IMG/VR virus record: IMGVR_UViG_3300037088_000314
Coordinates: 1-22,091 of that record
DNA: 22,091 nt
From: a virus
Reading direction: 5' to 3' (one strand)
In this document: positions 1 to 22,065 of the stretch, one piece after another
How positions within the stretch are numbered: the first letter of the stretch is position 1
Layout of the letters: each line of letters begins with the position of its first letter
Notes under the pieces: generated by a model
What the model saw: the letters and a program-made list of their open reading frames with translations, nothing else
Told to the model about the DNA's origin: nothing
Database searches by the model: none
Position numbers and translations under genes: made by a program

Positions 1-150
1 GCGACTCTCGTGGTTCTTCTCCTCGTAGCCGATGCCGTAGGGTGGGTCGGTGATGAGTACGTCAGCCGTGACCAGCGGCAGAAGCTCGCGGCAATCGCCG
101 AGATATAGCTGGACCAACTCGTCCTCATAGAACGGCTCGGGCAGGATCAC
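1..150 (-). CDS. DNA methyltransferase, N-terminal fragment (runs off the window)
   Basis: The minus strand encodes 50 residues from a GTG at 150 to the window edge with no stop. The reading contains [13 protein letters not shown] followed by [14 protein letters not shown], which is the start of the N6-adenine / N4-cytosine DNA methyltransferase fold. DPPY is catalytic motif IV, which positions the target base amino group, and the LGDCRE segment is the usual strand and helix before it. The GTG overlaps the TGA of the preceding gene (GTGA), and GAGGAA lies about 7 bases upstream, so the start is well supported. The early DPPY position fits the beta class of phage methyltransferases, in which motif IV precedes the SAM-binding FxGxG motif. 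That second motif is outside the window, so completeness and target specificity are unknown. Confidence 0.85.
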
Positions 151-413
151 GACCGTTCCTCGAACTTGGCGCAAGCAGGCCAGCGCACGCGGTGATCCGT
201 GCGAGCCGAAGCGCTGTACTCGCGCTCGTTGCATTTGTAATAGTGCTTGGCATAGTGGTAGTCGCGGAGGTGGTCGCAGTCGCCACAGCGCTTGCCCTCG
301 GGACCGGGGCCGTAGACCAGCATCGGGTTCGTCTTGGCGGAACCGTCCTTGTTCCGGCCGTCGGCTCTCGGACCGAGCGGCATGACATCGACTCCGAAGA
401 TCGGCCGCGTCAT
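147..413 (-). CDS. Small zinc-binding phage protein (88 aa)
   Basis: The protein starts at the ATG at 413, preceded by CAGGGG at a normal distance. An in-frame TTG at 446 would add 11 residues but has no better ribosome site. The C-terminal half carries [10 protein letters not shown], then HYYKCNE, then [14 protein letters not shown]: four Cys with flanking His, arranged as a compact zinc finger. This Cys pattern, ending in a W-P-A-C-A-K-F motif, is familiar to me from small phage proteins encoded near replication and DNA-modification genes; I know of no established function. The stop codon overlaps the start of the methyltransferase gene, which suggests the two are translated together and may act on the same DNA. 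A DNA-binding or accessory role is inference only. Confidence 0.75.
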
Positions 414-508
414 AGTGCCCCTGCCCGACGGAGGAAACGATGCCAATCGGTATCCGCTAGCCAGACCTTGGCTGACGGCCGAATCTCGTTCAATTCTCCT
501 CCTCCTTC

Positions 509-609
509 TTACCCTTTACCCATACCCACGCTTAGCAAATACCCTATGGGTAATTTGCAAGCTTACCCGTGTGGGTAAGTTGGGTTGGGTAAACTGGGTA
601 AATGGGTAA
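509..609. repeat. Cluster of GGGTAA / TTACCC hexamers, inverted array with G-quadruplex motif
   Basis: The 197-base gap at 414-610 between the helicase stop and the 88-residue gene holds this cluster and no gene. TTACCC occurs at 509, 516 and 563, shorter TACCC at 523 and 540, and GGGTAA at 548, 573, 587, 596 and 604, with GGGTT at 582. The left part is mostly in one orientation and the right part in the other, so the arms could pair as a long imperfect stem. Two local palindromes are visible: CTTACCC-GTGT-GGGTAAG (562-579), and GCAAAT-ACCC-TAT-GGGT-A-ATTTGC (535-558). From 573 to 606 the plus strand has five GGG runs separated by 6, 2, 6 and 5 bases. It could be origin iterons, an operator array or a structured terminator. 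Confidence 0.7.
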
Positions 610-610
610 A

Positions 611-2416
611 TCACGCTAGTCCGTACTTCCCCTCGGAGGTAGTAATCGCTATGTTCTTACCCCGAGCCTTCTGAACGAGCCTTCCAACGTAGGTCGGCTT
701 GATACTCAGCCAGTCGGCGATCTGCTGGGTCGTGAGTGGTCCTTCTCGGCGTAGAAGCGCCCTCAGGCGGTCGGTCTCCGTCTCATGTGAACGGTTCGTG
801 GCGGTCGCCTCAACCTCGTCTAGCTCGAACCTGATGGAGTCGTAGTTGCCTGGCTCATCGGGTTCTGGTGGGTCGAACTCGATGCGGATCGCCTGGGGGT
901 CCATCCTCGGAGCCAGCGCGTCGGGCTTGGTGTTCTTGAGCACCACCACCCGCGTGCCCGGCTCCTCGGACTGTGCATAGCAGGAATACGAGCCACGAGC
1001 GTCGTTCATCTGCGCCACCGAGCCGTACTCGCGGTCGGCCTCACGACCCGTCGAAATAGCGTCGCCACGGACATGAGCGATCAGCATGTTCGAGGTGCGA
1101 AACTCCCGCAGCACCTCGTATAACTCGTGGATCGGCATCGCAGGATCGCCCGGAGCCGTGCGCGCGGCACGGCTGACCGGACTAACGATCAGGAACTCGA
1201 TTTGGTTGTCCACGATCCAGCGGCCCACGTCGTCCGCGCAGTCCGCCAGCGGACGCCTCATCGGGCGCAGGTAGAAGTTGGAAATCTCAACGCCGTAGGC
1301 AGAGCACATGGCACGCATCCGAACCTTGTGCTCCGTCTCGCCCTCGTCCCAGTCCAACAGCCCAACGGAGAACCGTCCGGTCGGTATCCAGTGCGGCACG
1401 ATCTCTGCGCCCGTACAGGCCGACAGAGCCAGCCCGTCCGAGATCGTAGTCTTACCGGCGGAGCCGGGGCCAAAGAGCGAGACCGTCCGTCCTAGCCGCA
1501 TGCGACCCCGGAACAACCACGGCGTGGTGCCGAGCTTCTCGGGCGTCGTCTGCATTTCCGCTGTCTCCGCCGACGCTTGCGCCTCTCGGATCGTTCTCTG
1601 TGAGAGATAGTCCAGCCGTTTCTGCCATGTCTCGGGCTTCTCGCCGACGCGCTCGGATAGCTCCTTGGCCAGAGCCTTCAGGTTGGTGCCGCCGAACAAT
1701 CCGACGGTACGGCTGAAGACGTAGCCGTCCAGATCGGCCTGAGCCTGAGGGTGGCCAGGCGCGTAGAGCGTCACCAGCCCCTTGGGCTCGCGGTCGTTTA
1801 CGTCTACCCGTGACAGAACGATCTTCCACGACTCACGCGGCGCTGCCAGCGAGTAGGCTCGGAAGCCCGCCTTCTCGAAATGCGCCCGGCCGGTGTTGAC
1901 CAGTGCGGCAGCCTCTCGCAGTTCAAGGAGGGCTCGGTCGAGCGCCTCGGCGACGTCGCGGCCATCCTCGTGGCCGATGGCAGCGATCCTGCCTCCCGCG
2001 CCGATGAGCGCCCGAGAGGCAGCCTTTTGGATGACGATCTGGGCGTACTGTCCGACATAGATCGAGGTCGGGGTGCCGTTGAGCATCGTTGAGAGGTAGG
2101 CAGAGCCGCCCACCTCATCTAGATGAGAGTTGAGTTCATTCGACACGGTGAGAATGTCTACGGGTTCGCCCCGGCCGTAGAGCGCCAGCATTGCTCCGTA
2201 AACGGTGCCGTGCCTCTGCCGGTAGAAGTGCTCAGGCTTGAGGGTGTCCATGACGGCGGAGCCACCGCAATCGTCGCACCGCTTGCCGTCGTAGATGCCG
2301 GTGGACTTGCAGGTAGCACATGGCATTCCAGCGGCCAGCGATGACCCGTCCATGAGGATACTGCCAAGGACCCCAACCTCAGAGTCGAGGTTGCTGGGTG
2401 GTAGCCTGTCGATCAT
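611..2416 (-). CDS. Replicative helicase-like protein: DnaB N-terminal domain fused to RepA-type ATPase
   Basis: A 601-residue protein with several domains. Residues 7-135 match the DnaB helicase N-terminal domain (SNLDSEVGVLGSILMD, then LKPEHFYRQRHGTVYGAM). It is interrupted by a knuckle with Cys at 33, 36, 47 and 50. Residues about 300-530 are a RecA-fold ATPase of the RepA/AAA_25 kind: Walker A GPGSAGKT (316-323), the LLDWDEGE strand (353-360) and IAHVRGD (446-452). The expected Walker B strand reads IEFLIVSP, with Ser where Asp is usual. The last 55 residues look like a winged helix (TTQQIADWLSIKPTYVGRLV). The likely role is loading or driving DNA unwinding at the phage origin. The start is the ATG at 2416; a weak GGACGGAT lies just upstream. 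It sits between recT and the GGGTAA cluster. A primase domain is not evident. Confidence 0.85.
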   Translation of the reverse strand: MIDRLPPSNLDSEVGVLGSILMDGSSLAAGMPCATCKSTGIYDGKRCDDCGGSAVMDTLKPEHFYRQRHGTVYGAMLALYGRGEPVDILTVSNELNSHLDEVGGSAYLSTMLNGTPTSIYVGQYAQIVIQKAASRALIGAGGRIAAIGHEDGRDVAEALDRALLELREAAALVNTGRAHFEKAGFRAYSLAAPRESWKIVLSRVDVNDREPKGLVTLYAPGHPQAQADLDGYVFSRTVGLFGGTNLKALAKELSERVGEKPETWQKRLDYLSQRTIREAQASAETAEMQTTPEKLGTTPWLFRGRMRLGRTVSLFGPGSAGKTTISDGLALSACTGAEIVPHWIPTGRFSVGLLDWDEGETEHKVRMRAMCSAYGVEISNFYLRPMRRPLADCADDVGRWIVDNQIEFLIVSPVSRAARTAPGDPAMPIHELYEVLREFRTSNMLIAHVRGDAISTGREADREYGSVAQMNDARGSYSCYAQSEEPGTRVVVLKNTKPDALAPRMDPQAIRIEFDPPEPDEPGNYDSIRFELDEVEATATNRSHETETDRLRALLRREGPLTTQQIADWLSIKPTYVGRLVQKARGKNIAITTSEGKYGLA

Positions 2417-5075: not shown

Positions 5076-5744
5076 TCACTCGTTTGGAGCCATGATCATC
5101 GCTACGGCCTCGGTCACGCCGCTCGGGCGACGCCCCAGAGGAACCATGCCGCGAACTCGCGAGACGGCCTCCTCGAAGCCCTCGGTCATGGTCACGACTG
5201 CCTCCCCGGCACGCGTGGCGTGGATGAGTCGCACTTTCTCCTCGTCTGACTGCGGTACGCAGACGACGCGGCAGCCAGCCCATAACGCCTCATAGAGCGT
5301 GACTCCACCTGCGCAGACGACGACATTGGCCCGAGGCATGAGTCCCCAGCCCCCCCGCTTGCCAGGCATCCCGCGCCACCACTCGCCGTGAGTCGAGGTG
5401 GCGCAAAGAAGCAAGTCGATGTCCCGGCTTACCTCAGGTGCCTGTCGAATCAGCGGACCGACCGACCCGAGGAGCCCCTCGTACGGTCCAATCGGAATCA
5501 TCAGGTCGCAGGACAGCGGGAAGGACAATGCCTTGGCGAGGTGTATGGCTCGACCGTTAGCCGGGGCATGAGCACCGGACTCCACAAGGGCGATATCCCA
5601 ATCCTCGTCCTCCGGCTGTCGGCCACGCACGTCGCACCAGCGCAGCTCCAGATCGGGGATTTGCTCTTTGAGAGCCGCGTGGCGAGAGTTGTGGCCCTCG
5701 AACGCATCGACTGGTGGGTGCGGCAGAATATGAACGATTCTCAT
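5076..5744 (-). CDS. GT-B-fold glycosyltransferase-like protein (222 aa)
   Basis: The C-terminal half carries a nucleotide-sugar-binding motif of GT-B enzymes: ANVVVCAGGVTLYEALWAG (139-157), then CRVVCVPQSDEEKVRL (158-173). This pattern is shared by MurG-like enzymes and the PseG/SpsG nucleotide-sugar hydrolases. The N-terminal half is a short Rossmann-like domain opening with MRIVHILPHPP. At 222 residues it is much shorter than standard GT-B enzymes (350-400), so the acceptor domain is reduced. It overlaps the stop of the beta-propeller gene by 4 bases (ATGA), so it is co-translated with a presumed receptor-binding or fibre gene. Modification of a tail protein or of a host surface sugar is a reasonable guess; the substrate cannot be read from the sequence. 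Confidence 0.65.
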   Translation of the reverse strand: MRIVHILPHPPVDAFEGHNSRHAALKEQIPDLELRWCDVRGRQPEDEDWDIALVESGAHAPANGRAIHLAKALSFPLSCDLMIPIGPYEGLLGSVGPLIRQAPEVSRDIDLLLCATSTHGEWWRGMPGKRGGWGLMPRANVVVCAGGVTLYEALWAGCRVVCVPQSDEEKVRLIHATRAGEAVVTMTEGFEEAVSRVRGMVPLGRRPSGVTEAVAMIMAPNE

Positions 5745-16969: not shown

Positions 16970-17458
16970 TCACCCGGTGAATTCTTCAGTGACGGTCGCC
17001 TTGACGGTGGCGGTATGCCAGAGGAAGCGTTGATCGGCATCGGCAATGGGCGTCGGATGTGTTACCTGCATCTTCTCGCCGATGGTCTGGATGGTGGTCT
17101 CCGCACCAGTCACGGGATCGGTTATCCAAATCGGAATGGTGACGGTACGGAGGATGTCGAGCAGCGTCTCAATGAGGATCGGGAATGCCGCAGGCCCGTA
17201 TTCGTCCGAGGGATCGTTGGTAGTGGCCGACTGTATCCAGATGGACAGGGCGTAGGTCGCACGCTTCTCTCCCTTCCCTCGCGGAATCGTGTGCCGCTCC
17301 TCGTTCCATGTTCCGCCCCAGACGAACACCTGCGGGTTGGGTGTCAGTTGAAGGACGGGAGGCGGCATGACCCATGCCTGCGTAGGCGCGGGCATGTTCG
17401 GGCTCTGGATGCCGTCCAACAGAGACACCACATAGGACTCGACCGCGTTCACAGTCAT
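16970..17458 (-). CDS. Tail-terminator-like protein (162 aa)
   Basis: The start is the ATG at 17458, two bases after the stop of the connector gene (TAG-CC-ATG), so translation is probably coupled. The frame continues upstream to 18295 but that part is a shadow of the connector gene with Arg-rich composition. The protein has MTVNAVESYVVSLLDGIQ, a strand with VFVWGGTWNEERHTIPRG, YALSIWIQSATTND, and the helix FPILIETLLDILRTVTI, ending in beta strands (FLWHTATVKATVTEEFTG). This is the fold order of phage tail terminators and minor tail U-type proteins: an N-terminal helix, a four-strand sheet and a second long helix. Its place before the major tail protein agrees. Confidence 0.7.
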   Translation of the reverse strand: MTVNAVESYVVSLLDGIQSPNMPAPTQAWVMPPPVLQLTPNPQVFVWGGTWNEERHTIPRGKGEKRATYALSIWIQSATTNDPSDEYGPAAFPILIETLLDILRTVTIPIWITDPVTGAETTIQTIGEKMQVTHPTPIADADQRFLWHTATVKATVTEEFTG

Positions 17459-17460
17459 GG

Positions 17461-18363
17461 CTAGAACACTCTCGCAAAGCGACTCACTGTCGCCTTCCCC
17501 AATTCGTACCAATCTGCAGCAGCCTTGGCGGAGCTTGGCGCTGCACCCCCGCGACCGGACTGCATCACGGCGGCCGTGGCGCCGCGCATCAATCCGTAGA
17601 AGGTCGCGAAGTAGTACCCAGCCTGGATTAGCGCCGGAGGCATCGCGGACAGAAGGATGCGCTGATCGGCCTGCGACGTTGACCCCACCAGTGGTGCGTG
17701 CGCAAATTGAAGGGGCGTCGTAAGTGAAAGAGTGCCAGAGCCTGAGATCGCGCCTGCCGTGTCGGGAGTCGCTCCGATCACGGTGACGGACTCGCGGAAA
17801 GGTGGATCGTAGATGACGCCGACCGACGCGGATTGGTCGATTCCGCAGACCGGGAAGCCGTTGATGGACGTTACTTGGACCAGATAGCCGTCGCGACCGT
17901 TGGCCCAGTCCACGTAGCCGGGTGCTATAAGGGCGGCGGTAGGTCCTGGGCCGGATGCCGAAGGAACGGAGGAGCCAGTCAAGGGCAGCATCGAGTGCTC
18001 GGTGATCATGGCCGTGGCCGGAATGGTACTCCACGCGGGTGGATTGGCTGAAGATGGGCTGACCTGGCCACCCACAAGCTGCAAGATTGGCCATGCGGAA
18101 AGCCTGAATCTGGCCCAGCCGTTTCTGCGGATGGTGATGATGAGGTCCGGCCCGAACTCCTGCTCGACATCTTGCGTGGCCCGCAAATGCATGTTTGCCA
18201 ACGTATCCATCTCGGCGGTGAGGGTGGAACAGATGTCGAGTTGGGCGGCCACCTGCTCGGCGATGCTCGCGCCGGGCTTGGGGAAGGTACTCCATGAAAT
18301 CCCGAAGTTGCTGGACAGGAGCATCGCAGGCGAGATATATGGCGAGAGGCCCTCGGTGGACAT
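17461..18363 (-). CDS. Head-tail connector-like protein (300 aa)
   Basis: The start is the ATG at 18363, with AAAGGAGGT five bases upstream, the best ribosome site in the window. The longer frame to 18492 is rejected because it runs into the Ig-like gene and has Arg-rich nonsense composition. The N-terminus, LSPYISPAMLLSSNFGISWS then AQLDICSTLTAEMDTLANMH, has the helix-loop-helix look of head-tail adaptor proteins. The centre (VEQEFGPDLIITIRRNGWAR, then GYLVQVTSINGFPV) is beta-rich, as in a large insertion. The C-terminal part (MPPALIQAGYYFATFYGLMR) is helical. It lies between the putative head genes and the tail terminator. The family assignment rests on position and pattern, not on a single diagnostic motif. 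Confidence 0.6.
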   Translation of the reverse strand: MSTEGLSPYISPAMLLSSNFGISWSTFPKPGASIAEQVAAQLDICSTLTAEMDTLANMHLRATQDVEQEFGPDLIITIRRNGWARFRLSAWPILQLVGGQVSPSSANPPAWSTIPATAMITEHSMLPLTGSSVPSASGPGPTAALIAPGYVDWANGRDGYLVQVTSINGFPVCGIDQSASVGVIYDPPFRESVTVIGATPDTAGAISGSGTLSLTTPLQFAHAPLVGSTSQADQRILLSAMPPALIQAGYYFATFYGLMRGATAAVMQSGRGGAAPSSAKAAADWYELGKATVSRFARVF

Positions 18364-18401
18364 TAGACCTCCTTTGATTCGGAAGGTGTCGTCATACAGC
18401 C

Positions 18402-18710
18402 TCAGATTGTTCCTGGCGGGAAGGGATCGACTATGAAGTCGGAGGCGTTGGCTGCACCTATAGGCGTGGGGGACCACCAGCGATAGCTCCATCGTCCGGC
18501 CTTCGCTGTCGTGTCCACCGTGTAGGTGTAGACGCCAGTGGAAACCTTGGACACCTGGCCCAGGCCGTAGGTGTAGGTCATTGAGATACCACTGGGGCTC
18601 ACCACGTCCACCCGAGCATCCGTGGGGTCGAGCGCCGCACCAGATGACGGATCGGTGAATGCGCTCTTTACGATTACCTGAGCGCCGATGGTGTATCTGT
18701 TGGTCATCAC
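18402..18710 (-). CDS. Small Ig-like structural protein (102 aa)
   Basis: The reading begins GTG-ATG at 18710, one base after the stop of the fibre gene; the ATG at 18707 may be the true start, shortening it by one residue. The sequence (YTIGAQVIVKSAFTDPSSGA, DARVDVVSPSGISMTYTYG, STGVYTYTVDTTAKAGRWSY) is a single immunoglobulin-like beta sandwich, a kind of small protein that I know next to head-tail connector genes in many siphoviruses. Its role is probably decoration or stabilising the head or neck. No ribosome site is obvious, so translation is likely coupled to the fibre gene. Confidence 0.7.
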   Translation of the reverse strand: MMTNRYTIGAQVIVKSAFTDPSSGAALDPTDARVDVVSPSGISMTYTYGLGQVSKVSTGVYTYTVDTTAKAGRWSYRWWSPTPIGAANASDFIVDPFPPGTI

Positions 18711-18711
18711 G

Positions 18712-21700
18712 CTAGCCCAAACTATCTGATGCGTCTGTGGTCAAGGCGTAATCGGACGTAGACACTGCTGCTAATGGTGATGTTACCACCGAGACGCTGT
18801 ACGCCGGAGCGTCGGCCGCTTTAACTCGGAGAGGCTTCTTAAAGAGATGAACAAACCCGACCACCACTTCGGCAATTGCACCGATGGTATCGGAGATGGC
18901 TCTTTGGAAGGCTATCGCCGAGCGCGACACGGACTCAGAGAGCGACGGCAGTGAGTCTGTGGCCGTGCGGACTGCCCCCGTTATCCTCGACACCGTCTCG
19001 CTCAGGCTGGCCACAGAATCGGCAGCCGTGCGGAAGTAGTGGACGCTGATGTGAACGACCACGCCGATAACGGATTCGACAATGGACCCGATGGAGTCGG
19101 CGGCCGTGCGGACCAACGTCAGCGCAGATCGGGTCGCCGATTCGGTGACGGACGAGATTGAGTCTGCGGCAGCACGAGCGAACGTGATGGCCGACCGCGC
19201 CACCGACTCGGATATGGCGACCACGGAATCCGCCGTCGTGCGGACGAAGGAGATAGTTGACCGCGCAACTGATTCGGTCAGTGTCGAGATGCTGTCTGCC
19301 GCCGTTCGTAGCCGTCCTATCGACTTGACCGCAGTCTCCGACAGGCTTGAGATGCTCTCCGCTAGTGTCCGGGCAAAGGTGATGGCCGAGCGCACGACGG
19401 TCTCCGAGAGTGACGAGATCGAATCGGCCACCGTGCGCGCCAACGCCAGCGCTGACCGTGCGACCGTCTCCGAGAGAGACAAGATGCTATCGGCGGCAGT
19501 GCGGGTCAACGTCAGTGCGCTCCTACTTACAGCCTCCGACAGACTGGAGATGCTATCTGCCACCGTGCGGCCAAAGGCGATGGTGGACCGGACGACCGCA
19601 TCGCTTATTGAGGAGATCGAGTCTGAGACAGTCCGGGTCAGCGTCAGGGCTGAACGTACAACAGCATCGGTCAGTGACCCCACGCTATCGGATGCCGTTC
19701 GTGCTAATGCCAGCGCCGACCGGACTACCGACTCGGTAACGGTGGACACGCTATCGACTACCGTTCGGAACTGTCCCCTGAATTGCGTTGCCGTTTCGCT
19801 CAGGCTGGACACAGAGTCGGTCAATGCCCGAGTCCATGCACCCGAGGCGCGACTGACAGACTCGGATAGGGAGTCGATGGTGTCGGCCGCCGCGCGGTAG
19901 AAATTATGGGCGAAGGGAACGACGACCCCGACGACGGCCTCTGCGATAGCGCCGATGCCATCAGAGGCTGTTCGAGCAAAGGTAAGCGCGGATCGACTAA
20001 CCGATTCCGACAGTGACGAGAGGGAATCGCTCATCGTCCGGGCGAGGGCCAGTGCCGACCGAGAAACTGACTCTGCCACAGACGAGACGCTATCGCCAAT
20101 TGCCCGCGTAAACAGGGTGGCAGGCCGCGCCACTGACTCTGTGAGCGACCCGATGGCATCGGCGGCGGTGCGGACCAAATACTCTGCGCCGTGGATCACC
20201 ACTTCTGTTATCGGCGTGGCGAAGTCAGCAGCGGTGCGGGCAAAGGCCATGGCGCTACGAGACACCGATTCTGATAGGCTGCCCAGACTATCGGTGACGG
20301 TCCGCGCCAGAGCCCGAACTTGAGACACGGACTCAGAAATAGACGCCAGAGAGTCGCCTAGCGTGCGGGAGAACACGCCCGCACGGCTGATTACTTCAGA
20401 CCAACCCGACGAGATGTCATCCGCTACCGTTCGAGTCAGAGTGAGGAACGAGCGGGCGACACTCTCGGATAGAGAGCCAACGCTATCTGATGCCGTGCGG
20501 ACTAGTGCGAGAGCCGAACGAACCACGGTCTCGGTCAGGCTCGATACTGAGTCGCTCGTGGTGCGGGCAAAGGCAATCGCTGATCGCGTGATGGATTCCG
20601 TCATCGTGCTTACGGAATCCCCGACCGCTCGCGTGAACAGGGTCGCAGGACGAACGACGGCCTCGGCAAGAGTGCTAATGCTGTCGGCCACTGTTCGTGC
20701 CAGAGTAAGCGCGGCGCGAGCGACGGACTCTGAGATGGACGATACGCTGTCCGATACCGTGCGTGACAGCGACAGTGATGCCCTGACGACAGCCTCGGCA
20801 AGTGTGGGAAGCGAGTCGGCAGCCGTGCGAGCCCATGCGGAGTAGCGGGTAACGGCCTCGCTCAGTGTACCGACTGAGTCCGAGATAGAGCGAGACCACG
20901 CACCTGCGGCTCGGCTTACGGACTCAGACAGGGAGCCCAATGTGTCGCTTACGGTTCGAGCAAACGAGATGGCGCTTCGTGCCACCGTGTCGCTGAGTGA
21001 GGACACGCTGTCGCCTACGGTTCGAGCGAAGGCTATAGCGGCTCGGGTAGGTGACTCGGTCAGCGTCGAGATGCTGTCTGCGACGGCACGAGTAAACAAC
21101 GTCGCAGGGCGCGCTACCGATTCTGCGAGCGATCCGACACTATCAGCGGTAGATCGAGCGAAGGAGATTATCGACCGGGACGCGGAGTCGGAGAGAGTGC
21201 CGATGCTATCGGCCGTACCCCGAACAAAGGAGATTGCAGATCGGACCGCTGCCTCTGATAAGGACGCGACCGAATCTGCCACGGCCCTGGTGAACAGAGT
21301 GGCGGGGCGAACCACCGCTTCTGAAATAGAGGCGATACTTTCGGCAATGGTTCGGACGACACCTCTGCTCCCCGTGGTCGTCTCTGACAGAGAGGAAACG
21401 GAGTCTGAATCGGTACGAATGAACGCGATGGCCGAGCGAACGAGACCGTCCGAGAGCGAACTGAGTGAATCGGCAGCAGTTGCGTAGTGGGGTGTGCCCG
21501 CCGCCGCGTGGACGATGGTGAGGTAGGGGTCGTAGGTCGTCCCGGTGTAGTGCGCACCGCGTATGCGGACGAACTCGAAGCCGGTGGGCACGGCACCCGA
21601 GAGGTGTCTGTCGCTGTTCAGCAGCATGTATGTGTTGCCCGACCCGTTGATGTTGGCGGCCATCGCGTCGTCGGTCGTGTTGTGATAGCCTGCTGCGAGT

Positions 21701-22065
21701 CCGACTGTAGAACTGTGCGCCAGCAGCGTTTTACCGCCTAAGCTGGCGCCCGGCACCCAACATGCCGCCAGCGAGGCATAGGCCGAGATTGCTCGCACCT
21801 GTATCGTGAAGTCGCTGCCGGTCGTGACAACCGCATCAATGTAGACGGACAGGATCGCCGACGAGATGGCATCGGAGCCGACCACCGACGTGTTGATCGT
21901 CAGCGGAGCCTCGTAGCATTGATAGCCAGTGGTCTGTCCGACGTTAGGCGTTGTGGCATTGGCATCAGTGCCTGACAGAGTTGAGCGGGCCGTTAGGTAG
22001 GTGGCGTTGTATCCGAACACATCGCCGGAGTACACGTCCGTCGCGTAAATGACGTCGGTACTCAT
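18712..22065 (-). CDS. Giant hendecad-repeat fibre protein (1117 aa)
   Basis: The first 190 residues form a beta domain (QCYEAPLTINTSVVGSDAIS, SSAILSVYIDAVVTTGSDFT, IQVRAISAYASLAACWVPGA) similar to DNRLRE/carbohydrate-binding-type jelly rolls. From about 195 to 1076 there are about 40 tandem copies of a 22-residue unit with consensus RTVADSISSLSESVARSALT plus two residues. Non-polar residues fall at unit positions 3, 7, 10, 14, 18 and 21, which is two hendecads, so a long right-handed coiled coil is predicted. The last 40 residues are a Ser/Ala-rich tail. ATG 22065 overlaps the upstream stop by 4 bases. It lies on the head side of the connector genes, so it may be a head or neck fibre rather than a tail fibre. 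Function is inferred. Confidence 0.85.
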   Translation of the reverse strand: MSTDVIYATDVYSGDVFGYNATYLTARSTLSGTDANATTPNVGQTTGYQCYEAPLTINTSVVGSDAISSAILSVYIDAVVTTGSDFTIQVRAISAYASLAACWVPGASLGGKTLLAHSSTVGLAAGYHNTTDDAMAANINGSGNTYMLLNSDRHLSGAVPTGFEFVRIRGAHYTGTTYDPYLTIVHAAAGTPHYATAADSLSSLSDGLVRSAIAFIRTDSDSVSSLSETTTGSRGVVRTIAESIASISEAVVRPATLFTRAVADSVASLSEAAVRSAISFVRGTADSIGTLSDSASRSIISFARSTADSVGSLAESVARPATLFTRAVADSISTLTESPTRAAIAFARTVGDSVSSLSDTVARSAISFARTVSDTLGSLSESVSRAAGAWSRSISDSVGTLSEAVTRYSAWARTAADSLPTLAEAVVRASLSLSRTVSDSVSSISESVARAALTLARTVADSISTLAEAVVRPATLFTRAVGDSVSTMTESITRSAIAFARTTSDSVSSLTETVVRSALALVRTASDSVGSLSESVARSFLTLTRTVADDISSGWSEVISRAGVFSRTLGDSLASISESVSQVRALARTVTDSLGSLSESVSRSAMAFARTAADFATPITEVVIHGAEYLVRTAADAIGSLTESVARPATLFTRAIGDSVSSVAESVSRSALALARTMSDSLSSLSESVSRSALTFARTASDGIGAIAEAVVGVVVPFAHNFYRAAADTIDSLSESVSRASGAWTRALTDSVSSLSETATQFRGQFRTVVDSVSTVTESVVRSALALARTASDSVGSLTDAVVRSALTLTRTVSDSISSISDAVVRSTIAFGRTVADSISSLSEAVSRSALTLTRTAADSILSLSETVARSALALARTVADSISSLSETVVRSAITFARTLAESISSLSETAVKSIGRLRTAADSISTLTESVARSTISFVRTTADSVVAISESVARSAITFARAAADSISSVTESATRSALTLVRTAADSIGSIVESVIGVVVHISVHYFRTAADSVASLSETVSRITGAVRTATDSLPSLSESVSRSAIAFQRAISDTIGAIAEVVVGFVHLFKKPLRVKAADAPAYSVSVVTSPLAAVSTSDYALTTDASDSLG
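18838..21483 (-). repeat. Tandem 66-bp degenerate coding repeats (about 40 units)
   Basis: The DNA of the fibre gene is organised in 66-base units, with six units of 63 bases and two of 78. Neighbouring units keep the protein pattern but use varied Ser, Arg, Leu and Ala codons, so DNA identity between units is moderate. Because 66 is divisible by three, the antisense frames also stay open and give long false ORFs with the same periodicity. The units start with Arg and mostly read R-T-x-x-D-S-h-x-S-h-x-E-x-h-x-R-S-A. Confidence 0.9.

Follow-up and report, generated by a model that had tools for sequence, protein, structure and literature searches.

A mixed-orientation GGGTAA array directly behind the replication ATPase gene of a tailed phage and its reading as a putative replication origin

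What is the role of a dense cluster of short repeats, in both orientations, that takes up the whole non-coding interval after the replication ATPase gene of a phage? The locus belongs to virus record IMGVR_UViG_3300037088_000314, analysed here over its whole length of 22,091 bp (the window), with an overall G+C content of 0.61. The record carries phage tail genes (one tail-protein match and a 1,338-aa tape-measure-like protein) and is therefore not a phage satellite island (PICI). Another protein, of 1,117 aa (18712-22065, minus strand), consists for the most part of degenerate repeats, each about 20-30 residues long, with a pattern like VRSAxxxxRTxxDSxSSLSE, and is a candidate phage fibre or surface protein.

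A contig from an Armatimonadetes bin of a fen, PMZA01000536.1, is 99.9% identical to the window and carries the same ATPase gene and array; judged by this binning, Armatimonadetes are a possible host of the phage. No further array of a GGGTAA-type word was found in the host bin. The two sequences differ elsewhere by single-base changes, a small indel near position 5300 and 64 bp that are missing from the window at 17819/17820. Because the gene and the array are the same in spite of these differences, an assembly chimera is unlikely as the source of the ATPase gene described below; the two assemblies may come from related samples. The 64 bp are not a multiple of three, and ORFs 16970-18295 and 17461-18492 overlap at this place, so that ORFs here and near 5300 may be frame-disrupted in one of the assemblies.

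Composition and surroundings of the array

Direct counting on both strands identified ten GGGTA in the array, on the minus strand at 510, 517, 523, 540 and 564 and on the plus strand at 548, 573, 587, 596 and 604. Eight of them extend to GGGTAA, and one extra partial GGGT is present at 582, which agrees with the approximately eleven copies in 101 bases given by an earlier, sequence-only reading of this DNA. Its description of the layout was also confirmed: along the plus strand there are three minus copies, two minus-plus pairs, which are the two palindromes, and four plus copies, so that TTACCC prevails in the left arm and GGGTAA in the right. The copies are irregularly spaced and their core is only 6-7 bp long. 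The coordinates are collected in Table 1.

Table 1. Features of the window at and around the repeat array
Feature	Position	Strand	Basis
88-aa cysteine-containing (zinc-type) protein	147-413	-	ORF
Possible 27-aa TTG-started ORF, ATGA overlap with the next gene	410-493	-	sequence, translation
Shine-Dalgarno-like GAAGGAGGAGGAG, abuts the array	496-508	-	sequence
Array of GGGTA(A)/TACCC in mixed orientation, eleven copies, putative origin iterons	509-609	.	counts, null models, GC
Left set, four copies TTACCC/TACCC (509, 516, 523, 540)	509-544	-	counts
Inner palindrome GCAAAT-ACCC-TAT-GGGTA-ATTTGC, one-base bulge	535-558	.	sequence, GC, folding
Right set, GGGTAA at 548, 573, 582 (partial), 587, 596, 604; one inverted copy at 563	548-609	+	counts
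Second palindrome CTTACCC-GTGT-GGGTAAG	562-579	.	sequence, folding
G-quadruplex-type motif with five tracts of GGG; the record has two such loci	573-606	+	motif scan of the record
Replication ATPase, 601 aa: DnaB_N (PF00772, CxxC...CxxC insert), AAA_25 (PF13481, residues 297-448), probable C-terminal winged helix	611-2416	-	Pfam, profile searches
ATPase C-terminal domain, residues ~540-601, probable winged helix, proposed reader of the repeats	611-800	-	weak HTH/winged-helix matches
Outlying GGGTAA copy inside the 3' end of the ATPase gene	657-662	-	counts

The density of the repeats is exceptional within the record. Both GGGTA (10 copies against 6 for the runner-up) and GGGTAA (8 against 4) are the densest words of their length in any 101-bp window, and none of 5,000 Markov sequences with the dinucleotides of the cluster itself matched either count. 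Six of the seven TGGGTAA of the record fall inside the array, and GGGTAA is found 13 times in the whole record, against 5.1 expected from whole-record shuffles. As a general measure, some 7-mer occurs at least six times in 98 of 19,527 random 150-bp stretches of viral DNA. With a G+C content of 0.46, the array is among the lowest 0.1% of 101-bp windows; its centre (528-562, G+C 0.43) is its most AT-rich part, contains two repeat copies and is flanked by the two opposed copy sets. A strong AT-rich melting element was not present in the array. The G-quadruplex-type motif is probably a by-product of the repeated GGG.

Some familiar identities do not fit. The term telomere-like, used in the sequence-only reading, had to be abandoned, as TTAGGG occurs 0 times in the record, no rotation of it gives GGGTAA or TTACCC, and the array is internal and irregularly spaced. 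A DnaA-box origin of the host oriC type, with a cluster of TTATNCACA, was also rejected: the array has a single box with one mismatch, and the record total is not above chance. GC skew within this fragment was uninformative, and a literature search on the motif TTTACCC returned nothing relevant.

The cluster does adjoin the replication ATPase gene, as had been described, beginning 1 bp beyond its stop codon (611-613). Genes for RecT and a YqaJ/RecE-type exonuclease lie upstream, in a module with the ATPase; no primase was recognised in the fragment. On the other side, the possible 27-aa ORF has a very strong ribosome-binding site and is translationally coupled to the gene of the 88-aa protein, which has no match in Pfam or PHROG and is followed by a DNA methyltransferase fragment.

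The hybrid ATPase and its relatives

Pfam identifies just two domains in the ATPase, DnaB_N and AAA_25, the latter with 38.4 bits against a curated cut-off of 27. The DnaB_C motor domain is absent, and the protein does not belong to the DUF927/Cch or D5/Primase_Cterm helicase families. The last 60 residues give weak but consistent matches to HTH and winged-helix families (AbiEi_4, E 0.0015; HTH_23; MarR_2). A profile built from five AAA_25 proteins, the ATPase of the window and four from Armatimonadota, reaches RSF1010 RepA (1g8y, E 0.014), and in the PDB several winged-helix proteins match it at the C-terminus; the C-terminal domain is thus probably a winged helix. A single-sequence AlphaFold model had a pLDDT of 34 and was not used for fold search. 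The protein is a hybrid, in which a DnaB N-terminal domain precedes a RepA-like AAA_25 motor and the C-terminus is probably a winged helix. Its DnaB_N also contains a four-cysteine CxxC...CxxC insert (2260-2332, minus strand; residues ~29-52).

The likeness to RSF1010 RepA, found by profile search, concerns the AAA_25-family hexameric helicase fold. The oriV of RSF1010 combines iterons and inverted repeats, and a separate protein, RepC, binds its 20-bp iterons. In the window, by contrast, the repeats measure 6-7 bp and the helicase itself is proposed to bind them.

Searches of viral contigs with the ATPase, RecT, the tape measure and alignment A1 found no relatives, and the exonuclease gave only a 28% match. 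The one syntenic relative found, IMGVR_UViG_3300037087_000232 (G292; loci L312-L314), was reached via a tail gene. Its tail genes are 37-69% identical to those of the window and in the same order, followed likewise by a YqaJ exonuclease, RecT and DnaB. The N-terminal domain of its DnaB is 48-56% identical to that of the window ATPase, lacks the cysteine insert and, unlike it, continues as a canonical DnaB_C. Behind this dnaB (L314), where approximately 320 bp are visible, there is no intergenic gap and no GGGTAA array, and the following gene, cut off by the contig end, has a weak match to a replication initiation family (E 0.0034). As the array is missing where DnaB is canonical, it seems tied to the altered ATPase and not to the phage lineage, on this one comparison. 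The sequence-only reading had counted absence of the repeats from close relatives against its proposal; they are indeed absent from this one, but the C-terminus of the helicase differs there, so the absence fits a module swap. Tentatively, and with less confidence than in the origin itself, we suggest that in one phage lineage a RepA-like motor with a DNA-reading domain replaced the motor half of a loader-dependent DnaB, and that the matching iterons were gained in the same step. A DnaB-plus-initiator replicon could in this way have become a self-recognising helicase-iteron replicon, the RecA-fold counterpart of the SaPI rep-ori.

Outside the near-identical contigs, we found no homologue that combines the hybrid ATPase with these repeats, so that the repeats have no demonstrable conservation across species. 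Microcystis phage Mae-Yong1326-1 is the only known phage that matches the C-terminal half of the ATPase, and the similarity is marginal (E 0.005). In both phages a non-coding stretch lies behind the AAA_25 ATPase gene; that of the Microcystis phage has five mixed-orientation 9-bp GACTGGCGC sites (0.18 expected), including a long hairpin. The repeat word, the N-terminal domain and the host are different. In phages of Microbacterium, Gordonia and Lactococcus, several AAA_25 genes lack an array on their 3' side. Two AAA_25/winged-helix genes of Armatimonadota with repeats behind them (G237, L162:2504-2694; G106, L166) were discarded as independent cases, because these are dispersed intergenic repeats, a GTGCAC-rich 65-mer and TGACGGGAATGACGGGA, found at about 27 places in each genome.

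Arrays at helicase and primase genes of other elements

Viral contigs were scanned for three TGGGTAA within short distances, which identified at least 120 stretches, and a control scan with the scrambled word TAGGTGA in the same layout identified 119. Coding cases and redundancy were removed, and Pfam was then used to classify those genes that encode 200 aa or more and lie no further than 350 bp away. Helicase/primase families account for 6 of the 17 genes whose 3' end faces a TGGGTAA array and for 5 of the 16 facing an array of the scrambled word. With both words pooled, they make up 11 of 33 3'-adjacent genes and none of 14 5'-adjacent genes (Fisher p 0.011). Among random genes from the same loci, 1 of 75 was a helicase/primase among the 25 listed families (p 5e-6; 0.002 if the true number were six). 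The Pfam families at array-facing 3' ends include VapE-like, DUF927 with HTH_56 (Cch-type), Prim-Pol/DUF3987 with C-terminal HTH, D5_N/DUF5906, and AAA_25 with Toprim.

The proposal that the same hexamer should be sought beside the helicase gene of related phages brought no support for the word itself: the GGGTAA array is absent from G292, and TGGGTAA was rejected as a conserved phage-wide motif. Because the scrambled word shows an equal helicase association, what recurs is the array architecture at the 3' ends of helicase/primase genes and not the word TGGGTAA.

The scan also returned arrays of other kinds. In L006, L010, L014 and about 20 more prophage-like loci (G+C approximately 0.6-0.67), a strictly conserved CAACTGGGTAAGCAAGTGGGTAATCAACTGGGTAACG block with sites 12-13 bp apart lies shortly before a gene for some 128 aa and is a candidate three-site operator. 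In L066, L084 and L105, a tyrosine-recombinase gene is separated from a putative repressor gene by mixed TGGGTAAAC/GTTTACCCA arrays, which could be operators or recombinase arm sites. In L002, L028, L036, L060, L091 and L117, TGGGTAAAAGT repeats overlap the 3' end of the integrase gene, and are candidate arm-type sites next to att.

Self-recognising helicases provide the known systems closest in layout. The C-terminal domain of SaPI Rep recognises iterons directly downstream of its own gene, and that of SCCmec Cch2 binds 5-nt iterons placed in the same way (PMC7581432). In PICIs the origin follows rep immediately on its 3' side and has two iteron sets around an AT-rich stretch, and the authors state that an initiator helicase with its origin directly behind the gene is present in no other known bacterial replicon (PMC6092414). 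Similar to SaPI/PICI and SCCmec Cch/Cch2, the window has short repeats in the non-coding DNA that adjoins the 3' end of the helicase gene. Its two opposed sets may correspond to the iteron sets of these systems, with a centre that is more AT-rich than the record but also holds two copies, and the ATPase C-terminus is the proposed equivalent of their DNA-binding domain. In contrast to them, the motor combines DnaB_N with the RecA-fold AAA_25 and is not a DUF927 or D5/Primase_Cterm helicase, the putative iterons are interspersed with inner palindromes, and the element is a tailed phage with no recognised primase in the fragment.

Origin and rival readings

The sequence-only reading had offered an origin with iterons, a repressor or initiator array, or a fold-back structure. 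The origin is the best supported of the three, since the array sits at the helicase 3' end, the helicase probably ends in a winged helix, and other mobile elements share the layout. We give a probability of about 0.6 to the reading that the array is the replication origin of the phage, with iterons that would be read by its own hybrid helicase through the C-terminal domain. Against this reading count the irregular spacing and short core of the copies, the lack of a strong melting element, the missing conservation across species and the AAA_25 genes of other phages that have no array behind them. Given the layout shared with SaPI/PICI and SCCmec, we propose that the putative winged helix of this helicase-initiator would recognise the short GGGTAA sites, and that oligomers of the protein would be placed on the two oppositely oriented site sets. 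The AT-richer stretch between the sets would then open and the RecA-fold motor unwind outwards, the ATPase loading its own helicase at the array.

The main rival is an operator function. Here a repressor or activator of the host, or one from a phage gene beyond this fragment, would bind the GGGTAA sites, control the promoter of the small-gene/methyltransferase operon and perhaps block read-through from the ATPase gene. The array lies directly 5' of the strong ribosome-binding site and the small-gene operon, its dyads have typical operator size, and TGGGTAA arrays of other elements are located between integrase and putative repressor genes (L066, L084 and L105) or shortly before a small gene (the widespread L006/L014 prophage family). 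However, a scan for promoters of the sigma-70 type found none, the record has no recognisable repressor gene, and its other promoters lack the motif. The helicase association elsewhere is with the 3' and not the 5' end. Altogether, a repressor or initiator array is possible and, as an operator, rather unlikely.

A role at the RNA level, in which the intercistronic transcript would fold into a three-way junction beside the ribosome-binding site and control translation or processing, is very unlikely. The array DNA does fold strongly (z -7.2), as does the minus-strand RNA (z -4.5), which abuts the Shine-Dalgarno sequence. However, equally good folds were obtained in 77 of 500 random copy flips (15%) and 42 of 500 spacer shuffles (8%), so that the mere presence of repeats in both orientations accounts for the fold, which is not evidence in itself. 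The fold-back structure, as a selected feature, is likewise left without independent support, being no better than the repeats alone predict. Rfam has no match for the array, an intrinsic terminator was rejected since no T-run follows the stem-loop, and there are no homologues for covariation. Also very unlikely is a function in partition or packaging, or as a set of arm-type recombinase sites. Sites of these kinds typically have short mixed repeats, and the scan found arrays overlapping or near integrase genes (the L060/L002 family, L066 and L106), but genes for partition, an integrase or a terminase were not recognised close to the array, whose neighbour is a replication ATPase grouped with RecT and the YqaJ/RecE-type exonuclease.

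If the origin reading is true, the design of an initiator helicase with its origin directly behind the gene would extend to tailed phages and to RecA-fold helicases, and the locus would show how replication modules swap within one gene. As a suggested rule, arrays of short mixed repeats that follow helicase/primase genes on the 3' side may serve as a motif-free predictor of origins in the genomes of uncultured phages.
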